Below, one piece after another: positions 34,358-55,689 of a DNA stretch of 64,000 nt. Both the position numbers and the translations under genes were made by a program. The stretch is from Fibrobacterota bacterium. Its GTDB lineage: Bacteria; Fibrobacterota; Chitinivibrionia; Chitinivibrionales; FEN-1185. The notes below the pieces were generated by a model that was given only the letters and a program-made list of their open reading frames with translations, had not been told where the DNA came from and did not search any database. The stretch is from contig PLWQ01000009.1 of NCBI GenBank assembly GCA_003165595.1, positions 1-64,000 on the forward strand, in the 5' to 3' direction. Position 1 is the first letter of the stretch. Each line of letters opens with the position of its first letter.

Positions 34358-35509
34358 ATGATAAACAATTATTCGGATCAATTGGGCACGCTCACGCAAT
34401 CGGGATGGCTTGATTACATACAGCGGTATCTGATCGTCGAGTCCCGCGGGTTGATGGAAGACAACGGGCTGCGGGGAATAACATCGAATCCGACGATCTT
34501 TGAAAAGGCGATCATAGATGCCCATGCCTGTGACGCAGACATAAGGTCCATGGCGCTCTTGGGGAAGGAGCCACGAGAAATCTACGACACGCTCAGCCGG
34601 CGCGACGTACAAATTGCGGCCGACAAGTTTCGCGCGGAGTATGATGAAACTGATGGCAGGGACGGTTACGTATGCCTTGAAGTCGATCCGCATCTGGCGC
34701 ATGACACCAACGGCACGATACTTGAGGTTCGCCGATTGTGGACTGCGCTAAACCGGCCCAACGTTCTTATCAAGGTCCCGGCCACCGAAGAAAGTCTGTC
34801 TGCCATAAAGCAACTTATCAGCGACGGAATCAACCTGAACATGACTTGGCTTTTTAGTTTGCCTCGGTACCGGCAGGTAGCCCAAGCATACATCGACGGC
34901 ATCGAAAAGCGCCTGGCGCAGGGGAAATCCGCAAAAGGTGTATGTTCGGTGGCGAGTTTTTTCGTGAGCCGCATCGATGCGATGGTGGATCCTCTTCTGG
35001 AAAAGATTATCGCACAGGGTGGAAACCAAAGGGATCTTGCCAGACATTTGCTCGGTGAAGCCGCCGTTGCCAGCGCCAAGGTGTCGTACCAAATGTACAA
35101 AGAGATATTCGATTCCGTCCGTTTCAAAAGACTTAAAGAAAAGGGCGCTCGCGTGCAGGGCATTTTGTGGACCGCGAGCGGCGCAGCAGACCCCGACCCT
35201 GTTGACAAACAATTTATCGAGGCGATCGTTGACTCGAGCTCGGTCAACGCAGTGCCGGTTGAATCTCTCAGCGCTTTCCACAGCCACGGCGTTTCCAGAA
35301 CCCGGCTCGAATGCAACGTCGAAGATGCTTCAAGAACCATCGAACGCCTCAGCGAATTGGGCTTTGGTATAGATTCCATAACCCAGACACTGGAGGATCA
35401 AAGTATTGAGAAGTTCAAGAAACTCTTTGACCTGTTGATGGAAACGCTTGCACAAGCATCGTCGCCGAAGGCCGGCGATCTTACACCCCCGATAGTCAAG
35501 TTGGTTTGA
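34358..35509 (+). CDS. tal: Transaldolase
   Basis: 383 residues, the length of the long TalB/TAL type. The start has GLMEDNGLRGITSNPTIFEK, and the Schiff-base Lys is residue 139 in RPNVLIKVPAT. GINLNMTWLFSLPRYRQV and VASFFVSRIDAMVDP follow. It interconverts sedoheptulose-7-phosphate and glyceraldehyde-3-phosphate with erythrose-4-phosphate and fructose-6-phosphate in the pentose phosphate pathway. The gene stands alone; the GGAG ribosome binding site is at 34345-34350. Confidence 0.95.
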   Translation: MINNYSDQLGTLTQSGWLDYIQRYLIVESRGLMEDNGLRGITSNPTIFEKAIIDAHACDADIRSMALLGKEPREIYDTLSRRDVQIAADKFRAEYDETDGRDGYVCLEVDPHLAHDTNGTILEVRRLWTALNRPNVLIKVPATEESLSAIKQLISDGINLNMTWLFSLPRYRQVAQAYIDGIEKRLAQGKSAKGVCSVASFFVSRIDAMVDPLLEKIIAQGGNQRDLARHLLGEAAVASAKVSYQMYKEIFDSVRFKRLKEKGARVQGILWTASGAADPDPVDKQFIEAIVDSSSVNAVPVESLSAFHSHGVSRTRLECNVEDASRTIERLSELGFGIDSITQTLEDQSIEKFKKLFDLLMETLAQASSPKAGDLTPPIVKLV

Positions 35510-35588
35510 AGACCGGGATTCCCATGAATCCCAAAGTTTGCGCATTACAGGCTGCTCACTGGAGCGTACATCCGGTCGTAATCGCGGT

Positions 35589-35657
35589 CCCCGAAGGGCT
35601 CGCTGTCGCGTCTACGCCTGTAGTGTTGTATGCGGTCGCAGTCGTGGTGCTTCGGGG
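35589..35657 (+). repeat. Structured element A (first of a tandem pair)
   Basis: A 69-bp unit closed by the perfect 8-bp inverted repeat CCCCGAAG (35589-35596) / CTTCGGGG (35650-35657). Its last 43 bp (35617-35659) are 36/43 identical, without gaps, to 35729-35771 in element B. Pair 6 of the closing stem is A-T here and C-G in B, a compensatory change. Confidence 0.65.
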
Positions 35658-35695
35658 TTAGCAAACGACTATAAACTTCTTCTTCCTTAGGGATG

Positions 35696-35775
35696 GAAGA
35701 ACCCCGCAGGTTCGCAAGAGCGGCTGCTCCTGTAGTGGTGCATGCAGTCGTGGTCGCGGTGCTGCGGGGTTCTTC
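35696..35775 (+). repeat. Structured element B (second of a tandem pair)
   Basis: An 80-bp unit closed by the perfect 14-bp inverted repeat GAAGAACCCCGCAG (35696-35709) / CTGCGGGGTTCTTC (35762-35775), with an inner 7-bp stem (cggctgc / gcagtcg, one G-U). A second hairpin, TTCTTCC (35680-35686) / GGAAGAA (35695-35701), uses part of the same left arm, so the two are mutually exclusive. It ends 17 bp before the EEP gene. Confidence 0.65.
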
Positions 35776-35792
35776 ACACGAAACGAACCTAA

Positions 35793-36542
35793 ATGCAAAA
35801 ACTGCGCATAGTAACGATCAATATTCATAAAGGTCTTTCCTGGGGCAACCGGCGTCTTATTCTTCACCGGCTTCGCGAGGCACTTCGATTCCTCAAAGCC
35901 GATTTGGTTTTCATGCAGGAAGTAGTCGGTAAAAATTCCATCCAGGCGGGAAAACACCTCAATTGGCCCGATAAAGCGCAACACGAATTCCTCGCCGATT
36001 CCGAGTGGAAATACTATGCATATGGAAAGAACGCATTCTATCCTCACGGCCATCATGGCAATGCGATCCTTTCAAAATTTCCCATCCTTCATTCGGAACA
36101 GATCGACACCTCGACCAATAGCTTTGAGCAACGCGGCTTCCTTTACTGTGCCGTGCACATTCCCGGCAACCCCGGTCCGTTGCATTGTCTCTGTATTCAT
36201 CTTGGGCTTTTTGCCGCCTCGCGCCGAAAGCAGCTCCGGATGCAGGCCGACTTCATCAACCGGTGTATTCCGCGCGATGCGCCCATAATCATGGCAGGGG
36301 ACTTTAACGAGTGGCATGGTGAAGACGTCGACGATTTCGCTCAGGTCCTGGGCATGAAGGACGCCGCACGGGAGGCAAACGGCAGGAGGTCGCGCACGTT
36401 TCCGGCGCGCATTCCGTTTTTGCCGCTCGATCGAATTTACCTCAGGGGTTTGACGGCAAAGAAATCCGCAACGTACTATAGGGGAGCGTGGAAAAAGCTT
36501 TCCGATCACGCGGTCTTGTTTACAGAAAGTGAACTGCAATAG
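35793..36542 (+). CDS. Endonuclease/exonuclease/phosphatase family protein (YbhP-like)
   Basis: 249 residues with the EEP fold: start LRIVTINIHKGLSWG, catalytic Glu in FMQEVVG, HHGNAILSKFP, and the metal-binding IIMAGDFNEWHGED and SDHAVLF. No signal peptide. It is one base upstream of a cardiolipin synthase-like gene, the same pairing as ybhP-ybhO (clsB) in Escherichia coli. It probably acts on a phosphodiester, possibly in phospholipid turnover; substrate unknown. Confidence 0.85.
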   Translation: MQKLRIVTINIHKGLSWGNRRLILHRLREALRFLKADLVFMQEVVGKNSIQAGKHLNWPDKAQHEFLADSEWKYYAYGKNAFYPHGHHGNAILSKFPILHSEQIDTSTNSFEQRGFLYCAVHIPGNPGPLHCLCIHLGLFAASRRKQLRMQADFINRCIPRDAPIIMAGDFNEWHGEDVDDFAQVLGMKDAAREANGRRSRTFPARIPFLPLDRIYLRGLTAKKSATYYRGAWKKLSDHAVLFTESELQ

Positions 36543-55391: not shown

Positions 55392-55401
55392 GGGGGGGGG
55401 G
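55392..55401 (+). repeat. G10 homopolymer tract
   Basis: Ten consecutive G lie 5 bp after the GH30 stop codon. Such tracts are slippage-prone, but here it is outside the reading frame. Confidence 0.9.
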
Positions 55402-55415
55402 TGAACTCAAAAGAG

Positions 55416-55436
55416 ACCACGCCCTATGGGCGTGGT
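55416..55436. repeat. Palindromic hairpin 1 (TAT loop)
   Basis: ACCACGCCC-tat-GGGCGTGGT, a perfect 9-bp stem. It is similar to the hairpin at 55567, including the loop and the CCACG start, with a C-G to G-C swap in the stem. It resembles REP or IS200/IS605-type end hairpins. It lies between two convergent genes. Confidence 0.75.
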
Positions 55437-55451
55437 GCACAACGTTACGAA

Positions 55452-55469
55452 AAAGCACTGACGTGCTTT
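55452..55469. terminator. Candidate intrinsic terminator
   Basis: AAAGCAC-tgac-GTGCTTT followed by CTTTGATTT on the plus strand; the stem is preceded by an A run, so it could act in both directions between the convergent GH30 and propeller genes. Confidence 0.45.
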
Positions 55470-55566
55470 CTTTGATTTCGGGAGTTTCTCACAATAGTTT
55501 CGTAAGGGTTTGGTAGTGATGCTGGGCACCATCCATTATGTCGTTTGCCCTTTTGCCCCTCATCAA

Positions 55567-55589
55567 AGCCACGGCCTATGGCCGTGGCT
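55567..55589. repeat. Palindromic hairpin 2 (TAT loop)
   Basis: AGCCACGGCC-tat-GGCCGTGGCT, a perfect 10-bp stem, the sister of the hairpin at 55416. The rest of 55388-55689 shows no gene. Confidence 0.75.
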
Positions 55590-55689
55590 CTTTACCCACC
55601 AGAAACATAATCGCGACATTAGCTATTGTCAATCCTTATCATAGGGAAAACAATAGATTTCAACAAATTTCAGAGATGTTCGGCAGACC

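Follow-up and report, generated by a model that had tools for sequence, protein, structure and literature searches.

The hairpin-rich region at 35589-35775 of the window (the 64,000-nucleotide stretch of Fibrobacterota contig PLWQ01000009.1 analyzed here) is part of a small mobile DNA repeat, which had no name before and has other copies in the genome, and is not a switch for the neighboring genes. Dispersal, insertion, a conserved fold, and modular inserts are all observed among its copies, and we place a probability of about 85% on the reading that the element is a mobile intergenic repeat, small and non-autonomous, that relies on the folding of one strand for its transposition or maintenance. 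This assignment, to non-autonomous mobile structured repeats of the BOX, ERIC, or CIR kind, follows from an intergenic location without orientation bias, sharp ends, and three empty sites in a sister genome.

Every part of the structure described in the sequence-only reading was present on recomputation: 35617-35659 and 35729-35771 share 36 of 43 bases (a repeat finder gave the same pairs), perfect closing stems of 8 and 14 bp bound the two units, and a third hairpin of 22 nt is there as well (Table 1). The region folds better than its dinucleotide shuffles both as RNA (z -4.7, 0/200 shuffles) and as DNA (z -4.0, 1/200). The real element is wider than the region first delimited, however, starting at about 35525 (TG|AATCCC), 64 bases before 35589, and what had been described as tandem units are a single 52-bp module inserted in two hairpin loops. 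As the units are parts of an interspersed element of ~252 bp, they do not represent a local tandem duplication.

Table 1. Coordinates of the repeat and its parts in the window, and of a second repeat in the sister genome
Feature	Position	Strand	Basis or remark
Whole element, architecture S1-A-M1-K1-M2	35525..35777 (~252 bp, limits approximate)	+	Ends T[G/C]|AATCCC ... TTCA[A/C]; one of ~100 copies
Helix P1, 5' strand (ATCCC)	35528..35532	+	Covarying helix; partner 35690-35694
P2 basal stem, 5' strand (GTTTGC)	35536..35541	+	TTT/AAA <-> CCC/GGG exchange; partner 35661-35666
Module A, optional 42-nt hairpin insert at ATT^CCCC	35547..35588	+	Copy counts in text
P2 apical stem, 5' arm (CCCCGAAG, 8 bp)	35589..35596	+	Recomputed pairing, covariation
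Module M, first copy, within P2 loop	35597..35649	+	Insert-less copies have short loop CTTG
P2 apical stem, 3' arm (CTTCGGGG, 8 bp)	35650..35657	+	Recomputed pairing, covariation
P2 basal stem, 3' strand (GCAAAC)	35661..35666	+	Covariation
Third hairpin (TTCTTCC-TTAGGGAT-GGAAGAA)	35680..35701	+	Mutually exclusive with P1 and foot of P3; sequence conserved, no covariation
Helix P1, 3' strand (GGGAT)	35690..35694	+	Covarying helix
Hairpin P3, 5' arm (GAAGAACCCCGCAG, 14 bp)	35696..35709	+	Recomputed pairing, covariation
Module M, second copy, within P3 loop	35710..35761	+	Copy comparison
Hairpin P3, 3' arm (CTGCGGGGTTCTTC, 14 bp)	35762..35775	+	Recomputed pairing, covariation
Second repeat of the sister genome (G001), with module D	L195:7708, L205:9005, L268:11146, L274:3179, L281:9503, L285:2556		

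The core of the repeat measures about 115 bp and consists of a long-range helix, P1, that closes hairpin P2, with hairpin P3 next to it. Blocks are arranged as in a composite repeat, with fixed outer modules (S, K, and P3) and optional ones (A, M, and D), in the order start block, optional A (42 nt), P2 with a CTTG loop or the 52-nt M, linker K, and P3, again with CTTG or M. Among 106 classified copies, M is found in 42, A in 36, and neither in 51, and the full architecture of the window copy is seen twice. Several copies (e.g., L032, L036, and L037) join the left arm of P2 through one M to the right arm of P3 and look like deletions via recombination between two M modules; the modules themselves may likewise have spread by recombination among copies. 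Module A also lies within the 5' arm of P3 (L028 and L035) and occurs inverted in L100, and a 65-nt module D lies at the ATT^CCCC junction in L034 and L045. D has 15 matches in the host genome; in the sister species, it has 14 and sits in one copy of the present family (L253) and in a different repeat; it was not found in the other three repeat-bearing relatives. That second repeat of the sister genome, interspersed and structured as well (GAGCGCATT-[D]-CATGCCGG...), has the 65-nt module in common with the present family. A coding function for the open frame of the window copy (NPKVCALQAAHW...) was rejected, as the frame needs one extra base (GAAGGGCTCGC, vs GAAGGTTCGC in most copies) and, depending on that base, is not conserved.

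The suggestion that the structure is under selection proved sound once copies and species were compared, with paired double changes far above those of shuffled alignments. Across 32 insert-less cores from three genomes (alignment A4, 27 pairs of the stated structure counted), 90.8% of cells were paired vs 79.3% in shuffles and 85 cells were changed on both sides vs 27, which 0 of 500 shuffles reached, although such cell counts are inflated by the relatedness of the copies and the number of different pairing solutions is more telling. When the partners were slid by 1-3 columns as a control, 31%-48% were paired. P1 occurs as TCCC/GGGA, TGGC/GCCA, TAAC/GTTA, TGCC/GGCA, and TAGG/CCTA, and as TCAC/GTGA in L113; the foot of P2 reads GTTTGC/GCAAAC, GCCCGC/GCGGGC, or GCGAGC/GCGAGC with two central G.A mismatches. 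The fold is that of the window's sequence as written. Pair 6 of the closing stem, which had been offered as a compensatory change, does differ between the units (A-T vs C-G), but the difference is a fixed label of P2 vs P3 in the host species and carries no such argument, and five apparent P2/P3 recombinant copies have an A.G mismatch there. Apparent compensatory changes in a single window can, in other words, be repeat-family labels.

The third hairpin excludes P1, and an alternative fold is therefore possible in principle, but it is not supported: despite the conserved sequence, covariation of its pairs was no greater than in shuffles (157/500), and the proposed switch finds no backing there. 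Strong structural covariation, insert positions that preserve the structure, and a slight G.U excess on one strand would also be expected of a multicopy structured RNA functioning in trans or in mRNA processing, as an RNase or protein binding site of, for example, the ERIC or Correia-like type, and the fold could also be kept for a role of the transcript. An excess of G.U over A.C would indicate that the + strand acts as RNA, but the one observed is weak (for A4, 13 v 3 in helices 3 and 4; over all copies, 53 v 36), too slight to tell RNA and single-stranded DNA apart. The copies lack the orientation bias to genes expected of an mRNA processing signal, their distribution is patchy (5/168 genomes), and sister species differ in insertion and absence, for which reasons we judge such an RNA function very unlikely.

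The search for the unit elsewhere, which had been proposed as a check, returned about 100 copies in the host genome and relatives in four other genomes of the order. DNA searches of the host genome (5.39 Mb, 42 contigs) gave 49 matches for 35570-35800 and 61 for the insert-less core, and a covariance model (R1), made from an alignment (A1) of 22 insert-less cores, found at least 104 places at E <= 0.01, the weakest of which may be chance. A total of 109 elements or pieces were located in the loci examined, the copy number being approximate. Two-base NN gaps of the draft assembly lie inside copies at L012, L014, L021, L046, L049, L073, L079, and L086; the assembly may accordingly be collapsed or wrong at these places and the number of copies inaccurate. 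By simple codon-usage gene calls made in this analysis, an overlap with a called ORF was seen for 13 of the 109 copies, all others being intergenic, with flanking genes oriented (+,+) in 24 cases, (-,-) in 21, divergently in 15, and convergently in 10, showing no orientation bias.

This spread bears directly on the tie to a YbhP/ClsB-like operon that the sequence-only reading had drawn. The window copy fills the gap between a transaldolase gene (ending at 35509) and an Exo_endo_phos gene (starting at 35793) on the same strand, the latter followed by a PLD-type (cardiolipin synthase-like) gene, and given its stable folding and two alternative pairings, it could be taken for a cis-acting RNA leader or switch of the exonuclease/phosphatase-cardiolipin synthase operon. 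However, copies occupy gaps of every gene orientation genome-wide, divergent and convergent ones included, and hold no consistent same-strand position upstream of genes. The missing covariation of the third hairpin also speaks against a leader, as does the window copy itself, at which no promoter-like or terminator-like site was seen, and Rfam returned nothing beyond chance-level matches at either gathering or lax thresholds, none above gathering scores. A leader function is thus extremely improbable, and any effect of the mobile repeat on neighboring genes would be a by-product of its landing place. Such repeats are easily mistaken for riboswitches.

The junctions of the element are sharp (101 left and 86 right), with random flanks beyond. 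In 89 of the 101 left junctions, T stands two bases before AATCCC; the base after that position is G in 75 junctions and C in 15. At the right end, TTCA is followed in most cases by A or C and then usually by T. The ends can be written TGAATCCC and TTCA[A/C]T, and the terminal repeat is confined to the tips (TGAA...TTCA, 4 nt). Some copies, with left ends at L072, L080, L081, and L095, start TCAATCCC (or TCAACCCC) instead. Comparison of the left AAT with the right A[A/C]T revealed no target duplication, 32 of 85 right ends beginning AC; a duplication of 1-3 nt (A, AA, or AAT at both junctions) is formally possible, although this sits poorly with the subfamily whose right ends read AC.

Syntenic sites were sought in about 1.5 Mb of the sister genome (G001), and the three sites that proved empty there are consistent with insertion at T[G/C]^A, with an ambiguity of at most A/AA/AAT. 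At C37:21687, the host has GGTTGTC[AATCC...CTTC]AATTCCCG vs GGTTGTCAATTACCG in the sister genome (GGTTGTC^AATT); at C37:8765, flanks are 78%-80% identical on both sides and the element is absent from the sister genome; and at C37:473504, host and sister have downstream flanks of the same length (18 nt) after CTG^A. Further syntenic sites of the sister genome are without the element, with gaps too diverged to resolve, and in the reverse case, the sister genome carries a copy (L212:13420-13541) where the window has none at ~55.4-55.7 kb. Insertion polymorphism between close relatives, as known for MITEs, is thus a property of the repeat. Head-to-tail copies (L018 and L046) are joined by ...TTC|AATCCC, as if inserted at another copy's end, which suggests that the 3' end of the element can itself serve as a target.

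For the mobile repeat, an enzyme encoded elsewhere would recognize the folded single strand and insert it after a T[G/C] dinucleotide before A, without a target duplication distinguishable from the element's own ends. An HUH/Y1-type single-strand transposase is our best, albeit unproven, candidate, given that the element folds, has short ends, and shows no target duplication. Neither adjacency to copies nor the distribution of Y1_Tnp genes identified a mobilizing gene: no copy adjoins the Y1_Tnp genes of the host, with no model match in L050 and L051 around the two genes; such genes are present in 32 of 40 genomes of the class and in many genomes that have no copy of the repeat; and the sister genome, which holds 12 copies, lacks the closest relative of one host gene. 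One Y1/IS200-like transposase of 226 aa with AGSKPAP/AGLEPAP-type inserts (L051:2277-2957, G000:C29) has no structured repeat beside it, and a related second Y1/IS200-like copy (G000:C9:67469-68071) contains an in-frame TGA.

The same genes bring to mind REP/BIME/REPIN palindromes, mobilized by RAYT (TnpA-REP) transposases (PMC3733652, PMC8266576), which are likewise high-copy extragenic hairpins with empty sites and without target duplication. P1, moreover, links the 5' tip to sequence just 5' of P3, at a hairpin foot, possibly in the manner of the cleavage-site/guide pairing of IS608 (PMC5934647) and REP (PMC8266576). We nevertheless regard membership in that system as unlikely, as no GTAG or CGTC tag marks either end, the unit spans 115-250 bp rather than the 20-40 bp of a REP palindrome, Y1_Tnp genes are neither linked to nor co-distributed with the repeat, and the left tip lies ~160 nt from the guide-like sequence in the window copy (~70 nt where inserts are absent), separated from it by a hairpin. 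A more specific proposal, which we consider quite unlikely, is that the 5' tip must pair with the internal guide-like sequence (through P1, co-evolving in every lineage) for the element to be mobilized as folded single-stranded DNA, and that it accepts hairpin cassettes A, M, and D at fixed, fold-neutral sites. If true, this would constitute a mosaic system of hairpin cassettes, different in kind from REP, BOX, and integrons, with cassette D shared between it and another repeat family in the sister species.

R1 matched 5 of 40 genomes of the class, the host's own included, the same five being the only ones among 168 genomes of the phylum examined. Copies number 12 in the same genus (the sister genome), 4 in the same family, and 21 and 2 in one genus of another family, and the same fold with different stem sequences occurs in five genomes of three genera. 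With the window copy as a DNA query, 30 relatives yielded one weak match, to core sequence, and modules A and M therefore look species-specific. Phage records gave no match, the 32-base core of M was absent from viral contigs, and exact core strings had no match in the text of 5.39 million papers.

By function, the repeat works like ERIC, Correia, BOX, and CIR (PMC2229807, PMC3049150), and its nearest analog in architecture is CIR with BOX-like modules added. BOX of Streptococcus pneumoniae (PMC3049150) is similarly composite, modular, interspersed, and intergenic, with an optional self-folding module inside an outer fold; it is described, however, as having terminal repeats, boxB in tandem, and duplicated targets, whereas the modules here occupy hairpin loops and the ATT^CCCC junction, and target duplication was not seen. 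ERIC/IRU and Correia/NEMIS (PMC2229807) are intergenic palindromic repeats of ~100-130 bp, and Correia exists in two lengths, 107 and 155 bp, the longer containing a single internal insert (PMC2229807). Both differ from the present repeat, with its 4-nt terminal repeat and two-arm fold with long-range P1, in that their terminal repeats are longer, their ends are TA, and their targets are duplicated. CIR of Caulobacter and Brucella, as reviewed in PMC2229807, has two long inverted repeats as two arms with a linker, a conserved RNA-like fold, and no terminal inverted repeats; it differs in a GANTC motif at a loop, and the passage on it describes no P1-like helix or optional modules. The A+T richness of classical MITEs is lacking as well, element matches having 48%-59% GC in a window of 53.6% GC. 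Since MITE features (target duplication and A+T richness) and REP features (tag, size, and linked RAYT; PMC3733652) both fail, the repeat is best described as a structured small mobile intergenic repeat outside any named family.

The clear compensatory evolution across species makes it testable whether folding is kept for transposition or for an RNA role, and module insertions at fixed, fold-neutral positions provide natural variants for relating fold to function. The window also holds a second hairpin-rich stretch at 55400-55600, with G+C-rich palindromes ACCACGCCCTATGGGCGTGGT (55416-55436) and CCACGGCCTATGGCCGTGG (from 55569). The sequence between these palindromes resembles module D by eye, and at this site the sister species carries a copy of the repeat described here.
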